Source of the DNA: Tabrizicola sp. TH137
GTDB lineage: Bacteria > Pseudomonadota > Alphaproteobacteria > Rhodobacterales > Rhodobacteraceae
Assembly (NCBI RefSeq): GCF_002855575.1
Contig: NZ_PKRQ01000002.1
Span: forward strand, 1 to 64,000
Direction: 5' to 3'
DNA: 64,000 nucleotides
The position numbers and the translations under genes are program-made. Numbering within the stretch: the stretch's first letter is position 1; the number at the start of each line of letters is the position of its first letter. Positions 55,313 to 64,000 of the stretch are shown one piece after another. Below the pieces are notes generated by a model, which was given only the letters and a program-made list of their open reading frames with translations, was not told the DNA's origin and did no database searches.

Positions 55313-56205
55313 CCGAAGGCCTGGTTCAGCAGCCCGAAGGTGCGTGCGTCGCCCTCTGGCGCGGGGAGTGCGCGGCCCAGCGCCATGCGTGTGACGGTGT
55401 CGTGATGCACCAGCCCATGCGCCACAAGGAAGCGCCGCAGCGGGCCGTCGGGTGCGCGGGTGTCCATCCGCAGGAACTGCCCCCGATGCTCGGCCACGAT
55501 GGGGGCGATCAGGTGCAGAACCTCAGCCTCCGTTTCGGCGACCACGGGGCCGATCACATGGCCCCGCCCGAACCTGCGGCACAGCGCGAAGCCCCGCACC
55601 TGACCCCCACGCTCCAGCACCGTGCCATGCGACAGACCGATCACCTCGTCCATCACGGCTGTCCGGTCCAGCGCGAAGGCGGCGCGGTCGAGGCCCAGGA
55701 TGGCGGCCCGATCCTCGGGGAGCAGGGGTCTGACCTTGCCGGGGCCGAGCGCGGGAAGTTGGGCTGTATCAGGGCTGGCCGTCACTTCGCCATTGTGCTG
55801 GAACACCGGGGCCAGCGGCATGAAGCCCAACGAGATATAGAGCCGATAGGCGGGTCGCGTGGCGTTCAGCACCATACCGCGATCCCCGATCTGATCCATC
55901 ACGAGCCCCATGAGCCAACGTCCGGTTCCGTGATCCTGCAAGCGGGGGGAGGTGATCACCATTCCCACCGCCGCATGGCTTTCGCCGAGGGGAAACCACA
56001 TCGTCGATCCGACCAGCCGTTCGATCTCGTCCCGGGCGACGAGTCCATGACCGTGACGGATCACGAGGTCCCAGTCTTCGGGGCGATGCGGCCAGACGAC
56101 GGACACCGAAAGCTCGTGCAATTGCGGGATGTCGGCGGCCGTCATCGGGACCGCCCGCAACTCGTATGGGTCGAGCATCTTGGTCAGTTGCATCGTCTGG
56201 TGCAT
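55309..56205 (-). CDS. Two-domain GNAT acetyltransferase (paralog B)
   Basis: 298 residues. The N-terminal GNAT domain has the acetyl-CoA loop SPRLQDHGTGRWLMGLVMDQ and YRLYISLGFMPL. The second domain (FALCRRFGRGHVIGPVVAET, GQFLRMDTRAPDGPLRRFLV) aligns with the C-terminal part of paralog A (ALRHFGRGEVLGPVIAGS, GRFLRVDTPVSSGLAPWL). WPHRPEDWD is the shared N-terminal motif. ATG 56205 has GGAG 8 bases upstream. Two paralogs in one locus suggest two acetylation steps or two substrates. Confidence 0.87.
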   Translation of the reverse strand: MHQTMQLTKMLDPYELRAVPMTAADIPQLHELSVSVVWPHRPEDWDLVIRHGHGLVARDEIERLVGSTMWFPLGESHAAVGMVITSPRLQDHGTGRWLMGLVMDQIGDRGMVLNATRPAYRLYISLGFMPLAPVFQHNGEVTASPDTAQLPALGPGKVRPLLPEDRAAILGLDRAAFALDRTAVMDEVIGLSHGTVLERGGQVRGFALCRRFGRGHVIGPVVAETEAEVLHLIAPIVAEHRGQFLRMDTRAPDGPLRRFLVAHGLVHHDTVTRMALGRALPAPEGDARTFGLLNQAFG

Positions 56206-56252
56206 CCGGCGCGCTCCATCACTGGGTTTCGGTGCAGTCTAGGGGTGGCCGG

Positions 56253-56297
56253 AAAGCATCTTTGGCGGTTTCATCCCGCCGAAAGCGCAGAAGCTGC
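56253..56297. promoter_or_regulatory. GNAT-B upstream region with two motif copies
   Basis: AAAGCATCTTTGGC at 56253-56266 is a weaker 14-mer copy. GCAGAAGCTGC at 56287-56297 is the exact reverse complement of the 40848 site. Both lie between the GNAT-B start (56205) and the MerR stop (56313). Confidence 0.45.
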
Positions 56298-56312
56298 CAA
56301 GGCAAGGGCCTG

Positions 56313-56762
56313 TCAGTGATGGTGATGATCATCCCCGGCCCCGTTGTCATGATCGGGATGCAGGCAGAGATCGTGATTGCCCAGAACCTCGATCACCCGG
56401 CAATCGGCAACTTTTCCATGGGCGCAATGCTGCACCATCCGCTCCAACTCGCAGCGCAGGGCCTCCAGTTGCGCGATGCGCCGGTTCACGGCCTGAAGCT
56501 GCGCCCGCGCGATGGCATCGGCCGCCAAGCAGGGCTGGTTGGGGTCGTCCTGCAAGGCAAGCAGATCGCGGATCGCCTCCAGCGGAAAACCCAGATCGCG
56601 CGCATGGCGGATGAAAGCCAGCCGCGAGAGGGTGGACTGGGCATAGAGCCGCTGGTTGCCTTCGCTGCGCGTCGCCGGGCGCAGGAGACCGATCTGTTCA
56701 TAGTAGCGGATGGTCGGCACCTTGACCCCTGCCGCCTGACCCAGCTTTCCGATCGAGAGCAT
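56313..56762 (-). CDS. cadR: MerR-family heavy-metal regulator (CadR/PbrR-like)
   Basis: 149 residues. The MerR winged helix is MLSIGKLGQAAGVKVPTIRY followed by YEQIGLLRPATRSEGNQRLY. Metal-binding cysteines Cys78, Cys113 and Cys121 match the CadR/PbrR set, with Cys104 and Cys133 extra. The C-terminus is His-rich (DLCLHPDHDNGAGDDHHHH), a CadR feature that extends the response to zinc. Divergent from the P1B ATPase, whose promoter carries its operator. Likely ligands are Cd, Pb or Zn. Confidence 0.92.
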   Translation of the reverse strand: MLSIGKLGQAAGVKVPTIRYYEQIGLLRPATRSEGNQRLYAQSTLSRLAFIRHARDLGFPLEAIRDLLALQDDPNQPCLAADAIARAQLQAVNRRIAQLEALRCELERMVQHCAHGKVADCRVIEVLGNHDLCLHPDHDNGAGDDHHHH

Positions 56763-56772
56763 CACTTTGTCC

Positions 56773-56803
56773 TTGAACCTATAGCTACTAGAGACATTAG
56801 ATA
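56773..56803 (+). promoter_or_regulatory. MerR-type promoter of the P1B ATPase gene
   Basis: TTGAAC (56773-56778) and TAGATA (56798-56803) are separated by 19 bp, the overlong spacer typical of MerR-activated promoters. The spacer holds the dyad CTATAGCTACTAGAG, nearly the same as the known PbrR operator core (CTATAGTAACTAGAG). It ends 31 bases before the ATPase start. Confidence 0.85.
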
Positions 56804-56834
56804 TCCGAGTCGCGACAGACAACAGGAAAATCGG

Positions 56835-59042
56835 ATGCGCGACGAGACGGGCCAAACCCTTGAATTCACTGTGACCGGCATGGACTGCGGGTCCTGCGCG
56901 GCAAAGGTGCAGCGCGCGGTGGAACGGTTGCCGGGCGTGCAGGGGGCTGAGGTGGCCTTGATGGCGGAGCGGCTGCGCCTGCAGGTGCTGCCCGGTGGGG
57001 CCAGCGGTGACGAGATCGAGCGGACCATCCGTGCCATCGGCTTTGGTGCCACGCTGCGGGGCGATCCGGCGCCGTGCTGCGATCCGCATAAGCGGCTGCA
57101 TGAGGAAGGTCCCCACCATGAGCACGACAGTCACGCAGAGCAGCGGGCAGCACCTGTGGTGACAGAGCTGCGGTCCGACACGCCATGGCACCGAAGCGTC
57201 CGGGGCCGCCATCTGATCACGACCGGGCTGCTCTTGGCCCTTGCCTGGAGTGCCGAACTTCTGCTTTCCGGGGCAGTGGTGCATTGGACCTTCGTTCTGG
57301 CCTGTGTCCTGGGGGCGCTTCCCGTGGCCCGGCGGGCGCTGGCACTGCTGCGGGCCGGTGTGCCATTCACGATCGAAGCGCTGATGACCATTGCTGCTGC
57401 AGGTGCGTTGGTCATCGGGGCTGCCGAGGAGGCGGCCTTGGTCGTTTTCCTGTTCGCAGTGGGCGAGATGCTGGAATCGCTTGCTGCGGCGCGCGCCCGG
57501 CGGGGCATTCGGGCGCTGTCGGCGCTGCTGCCCGAGACGGCGCTTCTGATCCATGGCGATCACACCCATTCCGTACCGGCTGCGAGCCTGCGACCCGGCC
57601 AGAGCGTCCGTCTGCGCCCCGGCGACCGTTTGCCTTGCGATGGGCGCATCCTGCGCGGGCAGGCCGGGCTGGACGAAAGCGCCATAACGGGGGAAAGCCT
57701 GCCCGTTCTGCGCGGGATCGGCGATGCGGTGATGGCCGGTTCCATCTGCACCGATGCGGTGATTGACGTGGAGGTGACGGCTGCGGCCACGGAAAACACC
57801 ATCGCGCGCATCGCGCGGATGGTGGAGGAAGCCGAGGCCACCCGTGCGCCGACGCAGCGGTTCATCGAGCGCTTTGCCCGCATCTACATGCCCGTCATTC
57901 TGGGTCTTTCCGTTGCCGTGGCCATCCTGCCGCCGCTTGTGTTTGGCGGGGCCTGGGGGGACTGGGCCTATCGCGCCCTTGCGCTGTTGTTGGTCGGTTG
58001 CCCCTGCGCGCTGGTGATCTCGGTTCCGGCAGCGGTTGCATCGGCGCTGGCGACCGGCACGCGGGCAGGGATTCTGTTCAAGGGCGGGGCCGCGCTGGAA
58101 GCGACGGCCCGCTTGCGTCATGTGGCCTTCGACAAGACCGGAACCCTGACGGAGGGCCGCTTTTCAATCGTTGCCGTTTACCCGGTCGCGGGCCGGAGCG
58201 AGGAGGAGGTTCTGACACTTGCCGCATCGGTCGAGGCGGGTTCGACCCATCCGCTTGCGCGGGCGATCCTCGAAGGCGCGGAGGCGCGAGGATTGCCGCT
58301 GCTTGCCACGCGCCATGCGCGGGGACTTCCCGGGGTCGGGGCAGAGGCGCAGCTTGGCGGCGCGTTGATCCGCGCCGTGGGCCTGCGCCATGCCGGGGAA
58401 GACCTTCCTGCCGACCTGCTGGATCGGGCAAGGCTGGCCGAGGCGCGTGGCGAAAGCCTTGTGGTGCTGTTGCGCGACGGTGAGGCGCTGGGCCTGATTG
58501 CCCTGGCCGACCGACCGCGTGCCGAGGCGGGGGCTGCACTGGCGGCGCTGAGAGGGCAGGGGCTGCATCCCGTGATGCTGACGGGCGACAATGCCGGTGT
58601 AGCGCGGGCGGTGGCAGAGCCACTGGGCCTTGATCCGCAAGCGAACCTTCTGCCGCAGGACAAGCTTGCGGCGCTGGGCGCGCTTTCGGTTGAAGGGGGC
58701 GTGATGATGGTGGGGGATGGGATCAATGATGCGCCCGCACTGAAACGGGCGACGATCGGGGTGGCCATGGGCAGCGGCACCGATGTGGCGCTGGAGGCTG
58801 CCGATGCCGCGATCCTGCACAATGACCTGCGCGGCGTGCCGGCTATGATCGACCTTGCGCGGCGGACGCGGGCGAACATCCTACAGAATGTCATCTTCGC
58901 GCTTGGCCTGAAGGCGGTGTTCCTAGGACTTTCGGTGACGGGGGAGGCAACGCTGTGGATGGCGGTGCTGGCCGATACCGGGGCGACGGTTCTAGTCACG
59001 CTGAACGCGTTGAGGTTGCAACGCTGGCGTATGCCGGGCTGA
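56835..59042 (+). CDS. zntA: P1B-type Zn/Cd/Pb-transporting ATPase
   Basis: 735 residues. The N-terminal HMA domain has GMDCGSC (Cys18, Cys21), followed by a Cys-Cys pair (81-82) and a His-rich stretch (85-100). Core motifs are TGES (285-288), the CPC metal site (389-391), phosphorylated Asp433 in DKTGT, the STHPLA His, and GDGINDAPAL. The C-terminal LADTGATVLVTLNALRL holds the Asp that marks ZntA-type Zn/Cd/Pb pumps. ATG 56835 has AGGA upstream. It exports divalent soft metals from the cytoplasm, under the adjacent MerR regulator. Confidence 0.95.
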   Translation: MRDETGQTLEFTVTGMDCGSCAAKVQRAVERLPGVQGAEVALMAERLRLQVLPGGASGDEIERTIRAIGFGATLRGDPAPCCDPHKRLHEEGPHHEHDSHAEQRAAPVVTELRSDTPWHRSVRGRHLITTGLLLALAWSAELLLSGAVVHWTFVLACVLGALPVARRALALLRAGVPFTIEALMTIAAAGALVIGAAEEAALVVFLFAVGEMLESLAAARARRGIRALSALLPETALLIHGDHTHSVPAASLRPGQSVRLRPGDRLPCDGRILRGQAGLDESAITGESLPVLRGIGDAVMAGSICTDAVIDVEVTAAATENTIARIARMVEEAEATRAPTQRFIERFARIYMPVILGLSVAVAILPPLVFGGAWGDWAYRALALLLVGCPCALVISVPAAVASALATGTRAGILFKGGAALEATARLRHVAFDKTGTLTEGRFSIVAVYPVAGRSEEEVLTLAASVEAGSTHPLARAILEGAEARGLPLLATRHARGLPGVGAEAQLGGALIRAVGLRHAGEDLPADLLDRARLAEARGESLVVLLRDGEALGLIALADRPRAEAGAALAALRGQGLHPVMLTGDNAGVARAVAEPLGLDPQANLLPQDKLAALGALSVEGGVMMVGDGINDAPALKRATIGVAMGSGTDVALEAADAAILHNDLRGVPAMIDLARRTRANILQNVIFALGLKAVFLGLSVTGEATLWMAVLADTGATVLVTLNALRLQRWRMPG

Positions 59043-59181: not shown

Positions 59182-60915
59182 TCAGGACTGTCTGTCCAGC
59201 AATCCGGCGTGAATGCGGTTCTCCGCGTCCCTGAGGGCCTGGGCGGGCGGTTTGCCGTGGAAGACCGCGTCGTGGATCTCCGTTCCGAGTATCGCTTCGA
59301 TCAAGCTGAACTCGGGGATCGGCGGACGGGCCCAGGTCACGATCTCGTTCCTGCGGGCAAGTTGATCGACCATGCTGACGATGGGCGATGAGGCAAGTGC
59401 CTCGGGATCCGCGCAGACGGAAAAGCGTGGCGCAACGGGGAAGCCGTTCTTCACATGTGCCTTCATCGCCTCGGGGGACACCATCCAGGCGATGGCGTTC
59501 ATGATCTGCCGCTGGCGCGCAGGTGGCACATTGGCGGGTATCGTCATCAGGAAGCCTCCGATCGGCGCGGCGATCTTGCGCATCCTGCGCGAGGGCGGGG
59601 GCAGATAGGCCACGCGGCGCGCCACCTGAGAACTGAGTTCATGTTCGAAGCGGGCTGCGCGCATCGTCCAGCAATAGGCGAGACCGGCGCGACCGGACAT
59701 GAAGCACTGGATGCGCTTTTCCCAATCCATGAATTCGATGTCGGGGGGCGAGACCTCGACCAGTTGCTTCATGTAGTCGATCACCTCGACCGCATCATCG
59801 GTTTCAATCTGGAGCTTCAGCTTCTCGAACCGGTCGAAGGTCCAGCTTTCCTGATTGTGCATCGGCATGTCGATGATGGTCTTCTGGCAGGCGGCCAGAA
59901 AGAACATGAAGGAATTCGCAATGGGCATCCCGCGTTGCCCGTTCCATGCGATCCCGTAGAATTCGCCGGCCGGACGATGCAGGGCGCGGGCTGCGGCGAT
60001 GGTTTCGTCGAAGGTGCGCGGGTAGGTCAGTCCGCGCTCGTCGAAGAGGTCGCGGCGGGCGGCGAGGATCTCGATCGTGCAATAGAGCGGAATGCCATAT
60101 TGCGTCCCCTTCCAGTTGCCGGTTCCCCAGACCGAAGGATGAAAGTCGAGCGGGTTGATCGCGGCATCCTGCAACAACTCGTCAAGCGGGGCGAGGTGGC
60201 CCTTCTCGGCGAATTCGCCAAGCCAGGGCATGTTGATGGAAATCACGTCATATTCCGGCGACGGCTTGGCGAAATGTGCCTGGGCGCTGACGTAGAGTTC
60301 CTGAAGACGCTGAAGTTCAAAGCTGCTCTTGCGGCCGAGGTCGTTGCGGAAATCAGACCACATGTTGCGCATCGAGGAGAAGTAATTGTCGTCGTTGAGC
60401 AGGAAGCGGATGTCGCCCGGCACCTTGCCTGCGATATCATCGCCCCGGACCGGCGAGATGATCTGGGCCGCGAAGTAACTGCCGCCGAAATAGTATTCGT
60501 TCGCCTCGGTCCCCTTGCGCAGACCGAAGGTCTTGGCCAAGTGCCCCTTCACATGGGTCGCATAGTCCATGAAGCTGTGCAGCAGCGTATCGGTCGGTTC
60601 GAGGAAATGGGTCTTGAGCCCGCCTCCGCGCGGCACCTGGCGGATCAGGTCGTCGGCGATCATCTTGATGATCATCCGGTTGCCGGTGCTGTAGGGGACG
60701 CCAGCCAGCGTCACCAGACCGGACTTGTCGATCGGCCGGCGGCGCAGATGGGCATCCACCAGTTCCAGGACGATGTTCCAGAACACATCCTTCGTTGCGC
60801 CCGGAACCCCTGTATCGAAAGGCGCGCGCAGTTTGCGCAGGAAATCGACGATGCGCGAAAGCTCGTGGCTGGTCAGTTCCGATGCGGGGGCAGGAGCGCT
60901 GTTCAACTGTTGCAC
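59182..60915 (-). CDS. Winged-helix domain fused to family-1 ABC solute-binding domain (putative one-component regulator)
   Basis: 577 residues with no signal peptide, Tat motif or lipobox. Residues about 42-112 form a winged helix of MarR-like type (IDKSGLVTLAGVPYSTGNRM followed by IIKMIADDLIRQVPRGGG). Residues about 165-560 are a sugar-type family-1 solute-binding domain (VPGDIRFLLNDDNYFSSMRN, INMPWLGEFAEKGHLAPLDE, YGIPLYCTIEILAARRDLFD, FMSGRAGLAY, MNAIAWMVSPEAMKA). I infer a cytoplasmic ligand-sensing transcription factor. It follows the dehydrogenase at 60929 by 13 bases. No ABC permease genes are nearby, which argues against a transport role. Confidence 0.8.
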   Translation of the reverse strand: MQQLNSAPAPASELTSHELSRIVDFLRKLRAPFDTGVPGATKDVFWNIVLELVDAHLRRRPIDKSGLVTLAGVPYSTGNRMIIKMIADDLIRQVPRGGGLKTHFLEPTDTLLHSFMDYATHVKGHLAKTFGLRKGTEANEYYFGGSYFAAQIISPVRGDDIAGKVPGDIRFLLNDDNYFSSMRNMWSDFRNDLGRKSSFELQRLQELYVSAQAHFAKPSPEYDVISINMPWLGEFAEKGHLAPLDELLQDAAINPLDFHPSVWGTGNWKGTQYGIPLYCTIEILAARRDLFDERGLTYPRTFDETIAAARALHRPAGEFYGIAWNGQRGMPIANSFMFFLAACQKTIIDMPMHNQESWTFDRFEKLKLQIETDDAVEVIDYMKQLVEVSPPDIEFMDWEKRIQCFMSGRAGLAYCWTMRAARFEHELSSQVARRVAYLPPPSRRMRKIAAPIGGFLMTIPANVPPARQRQIMNAIAWMVSPEAMKAHVKNGFPVAPRFSVCADPEALASSPIVSMVDQLARRNEIVTWARPPIPEFSLIEAILGTEIHDAVFHGKPPAQALRDAENRIHAGLLDRQS

Positions 60916-60928
60916 GGACGGAACCCTG

Positions 60929-61849
60929 CTATGCGGAGATTTCGGACTGCCATTTCACCAAAGCGAAGAAATCCTGATCCCGCAACCCGGAATTGGCCGC
61001 GGCACGATAGAGTTCCAGGATCAGCCCCGTTGTCAGGAGCGGCACGCCATTGGCGCGTCCCGCATCGCTGATGAGGCTGAAATCCTTGATCATCTGCGCG
61101 ATGGTGAAGGCCGGGGTGTAGTCGGCCTTCACCACGGCCTCGGCCTTGTATCGTAGCAACGGCGAGGCGACCGCGCTTTCGCAGATCACGTCCATCATGC
61201 TTGCCCGCGAAAGCCCCCCGCTTTCGCCCAGCGCGACGGCCTCGGCCAGGATTGCGGAACTTGCGCCGACGAGCGTGTTGATCACAAGCTTCATGTAGCG
61301 GGCCTCTTCGCCCGGGCCGAGGAAGAACTGCCGCGTTGACAGGAGCCGGATCGTCGGCAGCACCGTTTCCCAGGCCGCTTCGTCGCCCGAGGCAAGCACT
61401 GTCAGTGCGGCCTTTTCCGCAAGGGTCGTGCTGCCGGACAAGGGCGCGCGAAGATAGGCAATGCCATGTTTGCGCAGAGCGAGGGCAATCTCTGTCGAGC
61501 ATTCGGGGGAAACCGTGCTCATTTCCACGAAGATCGCCCCAGGGGCCAGATGGTGGACAAGACCGGTCGCACCCTCCTTTCCCAAAACCACCTCGCGCAG
61601 CACCTGATCATTCGGCAGGGTCGCAAAGACGATGTCGTTCCCGCTGTGCAGGTCGAGTGTGGCAGCGCCTATCGCCCCTGCGCGTTCAAGATCGCGCAGG
61701 ACCTGCGCATCCGGTTCGGTGACCGAGACCGTGGTGCCGGCTGCGAGCAGGTTCCGGATCATCGGCGCGCCCATCTTTCCCGCGCCGATCCAGCCGATGG
61801 CCGGGCGGCCCGAGTCCATGCGTGGCGTCTCTGCCCTGTTCGTCTGCAT
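60929..61849 (-). CDS. NAD-binding 3-hydroxyisobutyrate dehydrogenase-family protein
   Basis: About 306 residues. The NAD loop is AIGWIGAGKMGAPMIRNLLA, the substrate-binding segment APLSGSTTLAEKAALTVLAS, and the catalytic Lys in EARYMKLVINTLVGAS. The C-terminal helical domain is typical of the beta-hydroxyacid dehydrogenase family (3-hydroxyisobutyrate, tartronate semialdehyde, 2-hydroxy-3-oxopropionate). The start is uncertain among ATG 61876, 61849 and 61819; 61849 has a weak GGA. First gene of the operon with the winged-helix/solute-binding fusion. Confidence 0.87.
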   Translation of the reverse strand: MQTNRAETPRMDSGRPAIGWIGAGKMGAPMIRNLLAAGTTVSVTEPDAQVLRDLERAGAIGAATLDLHSGNDIVFATLPNDQVLREVVLGKEGATGLVHHLAPGAIFVEMSTVSPECSTEIALALRKHGIAYLRAPLSGSTTLAEKAALTVLASGDEAAWETVLPTIRLLSTRQFFLGPGEEARYMKLVINTLVGASSAILAEAVALGESGGLSRASMMDVICESAVASPLLRYKAEAVVKADYTPAFTIAQMIKDFSLISDAGRANGVPLLTTGLILELYRAAANSGLRDQDFFALVKWQSEISA

Positions 61850-61904
61850 GCCGTTATCCACCCCTCGCTCCGGCATTGACCATAAATCGCCGGAGTGGCG
61901 GCGT

Positions 61905-61923
61905 TCGGGATAAATTATCCGGA
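61905..61923. promoter_or_regulatory. 19-bp near-perfect palindrome, probable operator
   Basis: TCGGGATAA-A-TTATCCGGA has 9-bp arms with one mismatch. It lies 56 bp upstream of the dehydrogenase start and about 200 bp upstream of the divergent alcohol dehydrogenase, in the only sizeable gap of this cluster. It is the best candidate for the binding site of the winged-helix/solute-binding fusion; that link is inferred. Confidence 0.6.
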
Positions 61924-62124
61924 TCGGCTAAATTTCATCATTTCGGCCCGGCGGCTTTTGGTAACACTGATGGCGGGAGTGAGTCATCGCCACAGCAGTT
62001 TCCGTGAATGGGCAACCCTAGGTGGGTGCCGGTGCAAAGGTCGCTTTGCCCGGGCGGTGGCGGCTGTTCTGCGCGGTGCGTCGGCAGGCTGGGGCAGGGC
62101 TTCGGTGGTGAGGGAGGATATGGA

Positions 62125-63192
62125 ATGAGAGCGGTTCGTTTCCACGGGGCCAGGGACATCAGGGTCGAGGACGTTGCCGAACCGTCTGATCGTCTTGCGC
62201 CGGATGAGGTGCTGATTGCGCCCGCCGTCTCGGGCATCTGCGGCACCGATCTGCACGAATTCATCGCCGGGCCGATCGTCACGCCACAGGCGCCGCATGT
62301 TTTCACGGGGGCCAGCAATCCGCAAATCCTGGGTCATGAGTTTTCGGCCCGCGTTCTGGCGGTGGGCGGCGCGGTCGGTCATGTGAAAGCGGGGGATCGC
62401 ATCTCGATCCAGCCTCTGCTGTCGCCACGGAACGACTATTACGGCAAGCGCGGCCTGTATCATCTGTCACCGCAGATGGGTTGCGTCGGGCTGAGTTGGG
62501 CTTGGGGCGGGATGGCCGAGAAGGCGGTGATCAAGGATTACAATGCCCAGCCCGTGCCGGACGGCATCACGGACGAGCAGGCGGCGATGATCGAGCCCGC
62601 CGCAGTCGCGCTTTACGGCGTGGACCGCGGGGGGATCGCGGCGGGGTCGACGGTGCTTGTATCGGGTGCGGGTCCGATTGGGGCCTTGACCATTCTGGCG
62701 GCCAAGGCGGCCGGGGCCGCGACCATCATCGTGTCGGAGCCGAACCCGAACCGTCGTCGCATCGTGACCGAGATTGCGCCCTATGCCCATGTCGTGGATC
62801 CGCGCGACGGCACGCTGGCGCAGGTCGTGGGCGACCTGACGGAGGAAGGCGTCGGTGTCGATGTGGCGCTGGAATGCGTCGGGCTGGAGACTTCGCTGAA
62901 TGCCTGTGTCCAGGCCGTTCGGCGCCAGGGCAAGGTGGTGCAGGTCGGGCTGCACATGAAGCCTGCCAGCATCGACGCGATGCTCTGGGCCTTGAAGGAC
63001 ATCACGGTCGAGGCGACGTGGTGCTACCCGACGCAAATTTGGCCCCGCATCGCCCGGATGATCGCCGCGGGCATCTTCCCGGTGGAGAAGGTGATCACCG
63101 CGCGGATTGACGCCCGGGACGTGGTCGCCAAGGGCTTTGAAGCCCTACTCGATCCGTCGGGCGAGCATCTGAAGATTCTGGTCACGACGTGA
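62125..63192 (+). CDS. Zinc-type alcohol dehydrogenase (butanediol/sorbitol dehydrogenase-like)
   Basis: 355 residues, MDR family. The catalytic zinc ligands are Cys in GICGTDLHEF and His/Glu in ILGHEFSARV; the NAD loop is VLVSGAGPIGALTILAAK. The structural zinc-binding Cys cluster usually found after residue 90 is absent: the segment reads LLSPRNDYYGKRGLYHLSPQ with a single Cys afterwards (MGCVGLSWAWGGMAEK). ATG 62125 has GGAGG upstream. The enzyme oxidises a diol or polyol, or reduces the matching ketone. First gene of the plus-strand arm of the cluster. Confidence 0.9.
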   Translation: MRAVRFHGARDIRVEDVAEPSDRLAPDEVLIAPAVSGICGTDLHEFIAGPIVTPQAPHVFTGASNPQILGHEFSARVLAVGGAVGHVKAGDRISIQPLLSPRNDYYGKRGLYHLSPQMGCVGLSWAWGGMAEKAVIKDYNAQPVPDGITDEQAAMIEPAAVALYGVDRGGIAAGSTVLVSGAGPIGALTILAAKAAGAATIIVSEPNPNRRRIVTEIAPYAHVVDPRDGTLAQVVGDLTEEGVGVDVALECVGLETSLNACVQAVRRQGKVVQVGLHMKPASIDAMLWALKDITVEATWCYPTQIWPRIARMIAAGIFPVEKVITARIDARDVVAKGFEALLDPSGEHLKILVTT

Positions 63193-63224
63193 CCTCGGAC
63201 CCCAAAAGCAGGAAGACGGGAAAA

Positions 63225-64000
63225 ATGGCTGCAAAAAACGTCGCTCTCATTGTCGGGGCCACGGGTCTGTCCGGCAGTTACGCCGGAAGGCTTCTGAAGG
63301 ACGAGGGCTGGACGGTTGTGACGCTGTCACGCGGGGCGGCTGATCTGGAGTTTTCCGATAGGCATGTTGCTGTCGATCTGTCGGATCCGGCGGCGACGGT
63401 GGCCGCTTTGCGGGCCGCGTCGGATGTGACCCATGTGTTCTTCTGCACCTGGTCGCGCCAGGCGAACGAAGCGGAGAATGTCCGCGTCAATGCCGGGATG
63501 ATCCGCAACCTGTTCGACGGGCTGTCTGCCGCGCCAATCCGGCACGCGGCACTGGTGACGGGGCTGAAGCACTATCTGGGTTCCTTCGACGATTACGCCA
63601 AGGTCAAACCCTACACCCCGTTTCTTGAAGGCAGCCCGCGCCTGCCGGGGCTCAACTTCTACTACGCACAGGAAGACGTGCTGTTCGAGATGGCTGAGAA
63701 GCGCGGCTTCACATGGTCCGTGCATCGGCCGCATACGATGATCGGCTTCGTCATCGGAAACGCGATGAACATGGCGGTGACGCTGGCCGTCTATGCCTCG
63801 ATCTGCAAGCATACCGGGCGGCCCTTCGTCTATCCGGGATCGCCCGAGCAGTTGAATGCCGTCACCGACGTGACCGATGCGCGCCTTCTGGCCAAGCAGT
63901 TGCACTGGGCGGCGACGACTCCCGCAGCGGCAAACATGCCGTTCAACACAGCGAATGGGGACCTGTTCCGCTGGACATGGCTCTGGCAGCAGATAGCCGA
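63225..64000 (+). CDS. PRISE-like SDR (progesterone 5-beta-reductase/iridoid synthase-like), 3' end off window
   Basis: 258 codons are seen before the window edge. The NADP loop is VALIVGATGLSGSYAGRLLK. The PRISE catalytic pair is recognisable: Lys in VTGLKHYLGSF and Tyr in LNFYYAQEDVLFEMA. VHRPHTMIGFVIGNAMNMAV and YASICKHTGRPFVYPGS are also typical of the family. Members reduce 1,4-enones or related carbonyls with NADPH; bacterial ones often have no known substrate. ATG 63225 follows GGAAGACGGG. It forms an operon with the alcohol dehydrogenase (32-bp gap). Confidence 0.85.
   Translation, partial: MAAKNVALIVGATGLSGSYAGRLLKDEGWTVVTLSRGAADLEFSDRHVAVDLSDPAATVAALRAASDVTHVFFCTWSRQANEAENVRVNAGMIRNLFDGLSAAPIRHAALVTGLKHYLGSFDDYAKVKPYTPFLEGSPRLPGLNFYYAQEDVLFEMAEKRGFTWSVHRPHTMIGFVIGNAMNMAVTLAVYASICKHTGRPFVYPGSPEQLNAVTDVTDARLLAKQLHWAATTPAAANMPFNTANGDLFRWTWLWQQIA

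Follow-up and report, generated by a model that had tools for sequence, protein, structure and literature searches.

The window analysed in this study, the first 64,000 nt of contig NZ_PKRQ01000002.1 of Tabrizicola sp. TH137, carries close to its right-hand edge a gene whose product is predicted to join a DNA-binding head to a complete solute-binding domain, a co-directional dehydrogenase gene, and the beginning of a divergent catabolic operon, with a palindrome and two putative promoter elements in the divergent intergenic region (Table 1). Upstream of the GTG start of the first gene, the frame stays open for 13 more codons, giving 590 instead of 577 aa. For its partner, the ATG at 61849 seems a more likely start than 61876, since the putative -10 element occupies 61879-61884 and the former codon is the one that lines up between loci. 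The Zn-dependent dehydrogenase that opens the operon gave Tdh and IolM as its best NCBIfam scores, all under the cut-off. Past the window edge the operon continues with YciI, Gfo/Idh/MocA and second Zn-dehydrogenase genes, a CUT2-type permease, a Peripla_BP_4 solute-binding protein (SBP) and an ABC ATPase-permease fusion, and beyond this fusion come genes for an intradiol dioxygenase, a further SDR and an ApbA-like protein. An earlier note on this DNA had stated that no transporter genes are nearby, which has to be withdrawn because a CUT2-type transporter, complete with a Peripla_BP_4 SBP, adjoins beyond the window edge. The ABC fusion is an 879-aa frame (L106:10691-13330, contig 68691-71330) made up of a sugar-type ABC ATPase with two ABC_tran stretches and a BPD_transp_2 permease.

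Table 1. Genes and predicted regulatory features around the fused protein (window coordinates)
Feature	Position	Strand	Remarks
Regulator gene, 577 aa	59182..60915	(-)	GTG start; exact start uncertain
Regulator layout			MarR-type winged helix (residues ~16-130), linker (~131-164), family-1 solute-binding domain (~165-577)
Winged-helix coding segment, residues 1-136	60508..60915	(-)	Predicted DNA-binding domain
3-Hydroxyisobutyrate-dehydrogenase-like NAD(P) oxidoreductase	60929..61849	(-)	Co-directional partner of the regulator
Putative -10 TATGGT, dehydrogenase-regulator promoter	61879..61884	(-)	First T 29 nt from operator, on the opposite side
Probable operator, 21-bp imperfect palindrome AATTATCCGGATCGGCTAAAT	61913..61933		Family consensus AWTTATCCRNNNYGGATAAWT; 7/10 arm positions match
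Putative extended -10 TTTTGGTAACAC, catabolic operon promoter	61956..61967	(+)	First T of hexamer 29 nt from operator
Zn-dependent alcohol dehydrogenase	62125..63192	(+)	Opens divergent catabolic operon; '2,3-butanediol dehydrogenase'-like in annotated relatives
PRISE-like SDR	63189..64000	(+)	Second operon gene; cut by window edge, ends at contig 64295

The whole protein was modelled by AlphaFold2 from a 48-row alignment with a mean pLDDT of 82.1, and its N-terminal 136 aa, modelled in isolation, gave a predicted winged helix with a pLDDT of 88.7, in which helices (16-36, 44-57, 64-71 and 75-87), two strands (91-95 and 103-107) and a closing helix (109-130) succeed one another. The predicted recognition helix spans about residues 75-87, and R80 within it is invariant over every aligned row; across the N-terminal domain the mean column identity is 56%, with some residues invariant. 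While the Pfam scan gave no match in the N-terminus of the window protein itself, MarR_2 was matched by 17 of 48 family members (best 4.8e-5). MarR regulators also predominate among the 50 of 1365 Foldseek matches listed for the isolated head, although the scores are modest (E <= 0.001 in 3/1365, TM-scores of about 0.4-0.5, rmsd mostly >=7 A), and a PDB profile search with the N-terminal alignment weakly matched TubR (0.0021) and a SlyA-like/MarR chain (0.0029), followed by more MarR chains. The MarR_2 matches in the family, the Foldseek result and these weak profile matches all point to a winged helix of MarR type.

The remainder of the protein resembles family-1 (CUT1-type) SBPs in both sequence and fold. 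In the window protein Pfam identified SBP_bac_1 (E=4.4e-19, residues 212-485) and SBP_bac_8 (1.6e-18), which were also found in 48/48 and 47/48 members, respectively, and among periplasmic family-1 SBPs the best match was 5iai (Arad_9887; 1.9e-27, TMt 0.89), with the likeness extending over residues ~175-565, so that the domain is full-length. A scan of the genome collection yielded 94 related stretches, from which 79 distinct loci were kept, and in 78 of the 79 orthologous loci fetched one frame holds both domains; the fusion is thus not due to chance. The exception, L074, has its regulator broken into two frames, and otherwise no unfused copy was detected among the 79 loci. This split (L074:350-2273, on a Loktanella contig) represents either a pseudogene or a sequencing error.

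The annotation of members in public records, where present, is mostly 'extracellular solute-binding protein', and the full-length SBP domain agrees with such a label, thus it might be argued that the protein is an ordinary periplasmic SBP whose N-terminus was mis-called or extended. In the window protein, however, hydropathy and inspection revealed no visible export leader: the peak 12-residue hydropathy within residues 1-60 is 1.49, and the stretch concerned belongs to one of the helices predicted for the winged-helix fold. Over 123 fused members the median N-terminal peak is only 1.13, while three of them are ambiguous (1.97-2.16) and as hydrophobic N-terminally as stand-alone SBPs, so that hydropathy alone cannot separate every member. 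Among the 11 unfused rows listed, 7 show a clear leader, one gene being represented twice in these 7, and the remaining four, broken L074 included, are cut where a leader would be invisible. The matches to MarR_2, the conservation and invariant residues of the N-terminal domain and the absence of a visible leader led us to reject an ordinary exported SBP, which we regard as highly improbable. The claim of the earlier note that a winged helix is joined to a full family-1 SBP with no visible export signal was thus borne out by domain matches, hydropathy and the fold prediction that it had proposed as a check, which returned a winged helix and a complete SBP domain.

The gene neighbourhood argues in the same direction. 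We scored context as counts over the 79 loci against a panel of 20 reference proteins, and as locus lengths differ, these counts are lower bounds. The partner dehydrogenase is the nearest upstream panel gene of the regulator in at least 61/79 loci, a CUT2-type SBP and a CUT2 ATPase occur together in at least 57/79, and a BDH-like gene occurs in at least 64/79, whereas in a clade of ~33-36% identity the regulator is transcribed divergently from another CUT2 operon, and two further records have next to it a CUT1 transporter that comes with a binding protein of its own. Since the neighbouring transporters carry their own SBPs, the fused protein, judged from gene content, does not look like the binding protein of the transporter in its own operon. 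The search for the same architecture and its neighbours, also suggested by the earlier note, gave a fused gene in nearly all loci and a conserved position beside a catabolic/transport operon.

The family occurs in Alphaproteobacteria and sparsely beyond. A match at 1e-30 was found in 14/61 genomes; with the alignment as query, at least 8/385 genomes of a class sample matched, all 9 matches spanning both domains, and at least 5/299 genomes of a phylum sample matched, four of the five covering both domains and one the binding domain only (own genome included in each count; the class and phylum counts are lower bounds, because few candidates were scored per genome). Among plasmid records 88 gave a match, and in 34 of these the match extends over at least 80% of the query. 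Distant full-length members, ~29-36% identical, were detected within the same bacterial genus and family, and one genome (G003) also has a closer copy. Stand-alone relatives of the binding domain lie in CUT1 operons and have visible signal peptides, with L107 being 33% identical. In a tree of the SBP domain, one branch parts 58 fused from 5 stand-alone rows (support 97/86), although this tree dropped the CUT1 SBP of L124 because of its very long branch, and two changes are needed when it is included. Near-copies (28/79 loci were kept), same-gene duplicates, the broken L074, the unfused L002, L003 and L004, and the CUT1 SBP of L126 were left out of both trees. A single origin of the fusion is compatible with the SBP-domain tree, which lacks a secure root, and may be considered as not rejected rather than proved.

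De novo motif search in the divergent intergenic regions, run on three clades (A, B and C), recovered one and the same palindrome in all of them, with log-likelihood ratios of 451.7 (22 regions), 306.8 (17) and 567.6 (24) against 107.3, 102.3 and 110.9 for the best of 8 shuffled sets per clade, i.e. 4.2, 3.0 and 5.1 times as high (60 random starts on real sets, 40 on shuffled). When each clade was left out in turn, the best 21-mer of a locus fell in its divergent region in 23/23 loci of clade C, 21/22 of clade A and 6/17 of clade B, where 0.54, 0.33 and 0.23 would be expected by chance. In clade B, where 11 loci were missed, nine of the best 21-mers concerned are copies of the motif before operon genes; L030 was unassignable, and L033 has another sequence. 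The earlier note had taken a palindrome at 61905-61923 as the operator, which overlaps the conserved site at 61913-61933 but is shifted from it; by eye, among 16 aligned intergenic regions, only those of the window and L005 carry the TATCC needed to complete the former, whereas the 21-mer at the shifted position is conserved. The palindrome at 61905-61923 was rejected as the operator for this reason.

With a threshold of 17.5 bits, which was our own choice, 62 loci gave 61 matches in the divergent region and 37 elsewhere, against 2 in one shuffle per locus. Ten of the 37 outside matches sit 194-385 nt before a PRISE-type SDR, the first SDR gene of a split-off operon, by which we mean the SDR-to-transporter block moved to the other side of the regulator; two more precede a CUT2 SBP by 259-264 nt, and one precedes another SDR by 242 nt. 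Five are inside panel genes (3 in an ATPase gene), and the others are farther off or unassigned. Operator-like sites were seen at the same place within the ABC ATPase frame of three loci (L024:13145, L025:13138 and L027:13151), and these may reflect either regulation or coding constraint. In the genome of the window itself, the operator site matches with 0 mismatches and is the sole place with up to 2, the 7 other places listed need 3, and a reversed control pattern gave 1 match.

Among distant members (25-50% identical), TCCRNNNYGGA was found within 400 nt upstream in 23/45 (mean 1.8 and maximum 4 in 50 shuffles). The strict motif is absent in the other 22 of the 45, including a nine-locus set of Mesorhizobium/Kaistia and relatives and 3 small-genome members, and other palindromes in these motif-less members are suggestive only. 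In two of the three members from 1.4 Mb genomes (L117 and L119), a palindrome ATATTCAAATTGAATAT lies 36-38 nt upstream of the regulator, which is perhaps a C-to-T variant of the operator. The lack of the motif in about half of the distant members, together with a DNA-binding fold that is a predicted one, leaves some room for another (global or neighbouring) regulator as the owner of the operator, the fused protein then having a different role, for instance to store the ligand or to control the ATPase of the transporter. We think this unlikely, however, as the motif tracks the regulator gene through clades with differing neighbours, has just one copy in the genome when up to 2 mismatches are allowed, and recurs before the split-off partner operon.

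The 16 aligned regions contain two conserved blocks in addition to the operator, and in the window the operator is exactly 29 nt from both putative -10 elements. Towards the operon, TTGNTA was present in 20/23 loci of clade A and 14/17 of clade B, its -12 T being separated from the operator by 29 or 30 nt, and in 0/23 of clade C at that distance; the chance of TTGNTA in a three-position window is ~0.0007 per site. It also stands at 29 in 8/8 second sites, which were picked from 18 clade-B outside matches, 7 of them after their flanks had been inspected, and in 6 others the element was, by eye, missing. On the regulator side of clade A, an A at 30 is among the most informative positions, which places the T at 29. 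Counted from the -12 T, the operator spans about -61 to -41 of both promoters, and the operon promoter of clades A and B appears, by eye, to be an extended -10 without evident -35. Transcription would be predicted to start at about 61974 (+) and about 61872 (-). A scan for sigma-70 consensus promoters detected nothing, and the elements described here were read from conservation after the fact.

Taken together, the computational evidence makes it very probable that the fused protein is a pathway-specific cytoplasmic one-component transcription regulator with the 61913-61933 palindrome as its operator. The cytoplasmic one-component reading had been offered in the earlier note, and it is supported by the predicted structure, the lack of a visible export signal, the gene context and the conserved operator; the sensing of a sugar or polyol that the note had suggested is plausible. 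In the mechanism we envisage, a winged-helix dimer would bind the 21-bp palindrome, and the ligand would be either the small molecule that the neighbouring CUT2 transporter brings in or a compound formed from this by early oxidation; judged from context, this would most likely be a sugar, polyol or cyclitol. Ligand binding would close the binding domain and change the geometry of the dimer, the protein, sitting at about -61 to -41 relative to each promoter, would touch RNA polymerase, and the ligand-bound form would activate the catabolic operon. The regulator might also control its own promoter.

Fixed spacing between operator and promoter is typical of regulators contacting RNA polymerase, and since the spacing is fixed in two of three clades, activation is probably to be preferred to repression. 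On the other hand, MarR relatives are mostly repressors, at both promoters the site (-61 to -41) touches RNA polymerase at its upstream end, and the promoter shared by the partner gene and the regulator makes autorepression natural. A MarR-like repressor of both divergent promoters that is released by its ligand, using the same protein and operator and differing only in sign, is thus a substantial possibility, if the less probable one. However, the operator does not lie over the -10, and both the 29-30 nt spacing (clades A and B and the chosen second sites) and the extended -10 without evident -35 (clades A and B, by eye) suit activation better than repression.

Binding-protein folds are not new to transcription regulators. 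SgrR reportedly consists of an HTH domain and an SBP_bac_5 domain, and HTH domains fused to SBP domains are also found in Firmicutes. Neither SgrR_N nor SBP_bac_5 is among the 20 Pfam families matched by the 48 members (E<=0.5), and membership of the SgrR family was rejected on this ground. In PMC13060122, the SgrR-like DsvR of V. cholerae is presented, on the basis of domain prediction and homology to SgrR of E. coli, as a regulator whose HTH is N-terminal and whose SBP_bac_5 domain is C-terminal, and negative autoregulation is given for SgrR. The window protein shares with SgrR and DsvR, by prediction, the order of an HTH followed by a solute-binding domain, but it differs from them (SBP_bac_5) in its SBP_bac_1 domain, its MarR-like DNA-binding part and the catabolic/transport operon that forms its context. 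The architecture of a cytoplasmic HTH with a complete SBP is found by prediction, with control of transcription deduced from the operator only. The earlier note had not known the arrangement as characterised; for an HTH with a full SBP, SgrR provides a precedent, while the MarR head with a family-1 SBP looks new. Among the titles and abstract starts that literature searches of open-licence PMC articles listed, none describes a regulator combining a winged helix with SBP_bac_1, which is weak evidence of absence.

In the LacI/GalR and LysR proteins, which are one-component regulators, the sensor resembles a binding-protein fold or is derived from one, and in having a binding-protein-type sensor the window protein is like them; no LacI, LysR or Peripla_BP family was matched by the 48 members (Pfam, E<=0.5), and membership of the LacI and LysR families was therefore rejected. 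With the MarR family, whose operators are inverted repeats, it shares the winged-helix fold with flanking helices and an inverted-repeat operator. Unlike MarR proteins, which are small (listed chains about 110-200 aa) and have their ligand pocket in the same domain, the 577-aa window protein adds a separate sensor of 400 residues. Compared with stand-alone family-1 SBPs, it has no visible signal peptide and does not appear to serve as a transporter's binding protein. The principle has a forerunner in SgrR; what looks new is that a MarR-type head is paired with a family-1 SBP, along with the spread of this pairing and its operator/promoter geometry.

A regulator class thus appears to be hidden under the annotation 'extracellular solute-binding protein', and its recognition would correct that annotation and would provide, beside SgrR, a second case of a full binding protein turned into a transcription sensor. 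The operator and promoter geometry given here is directly testable, and the much-studied sugar-binding fold might be turned to transcription switches (biosensors). The finding also points to a catabolic cluster pairing inositol-type dehydrogenases with an intradiol ring-cleavage dioxygenase. The dioxygenase is present in at least 30/79 loci and maleylacetate reductase in at least 22/79. Among the operon enzymes tested, none reached the curated cut-off of a dedicated enzyme family, and only a broad SDR subfamily passes. From the IolG-/IolM-like scores and the intradiol dioxygenase, a cyclitol-to-aromatic route may be guessed; a literature search on such a route yielded a single paper (PMC6486813), which deals with methyl parathion degradation. 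A more far-reaching picture, in which a distinct activator class, arisen when a MarR-type winged helix was fused once to a captured family-1 (CUT1-type) binding protein, responds in the cytoplasm to a compound resembling a cyclitol or a sugar and, using a symmetric operator equidistant (29 nt in the window) from two -10 elements, fires two back-to-back promoters for an uncharacterised route with aromatic ring cleavage by an intradiol dioxygenase as its last step, can be put forward tentatively, and we hold it to be doubtful as a whole.

Many of the loci L024-L083, and in addition L101, L126 and L131, contain clusters of dehydrogenases (some IolG/IolM-like), YciI, intradiol dioxygenase and often maleylacetate reductase, which suggest conversion of a cyclitol or sugar followed by aromatic ring cleavage. 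Elsewhere in the window, a heavy-metal P-type ATPase frame at 56166-59042 (+) shows the N-terminal metal-binding motif GMDCGSC in its ORF translation, and a MerR-like regulator sequence at ~56313-56800 (-), inside ORF 56313..58121(-), faces it.
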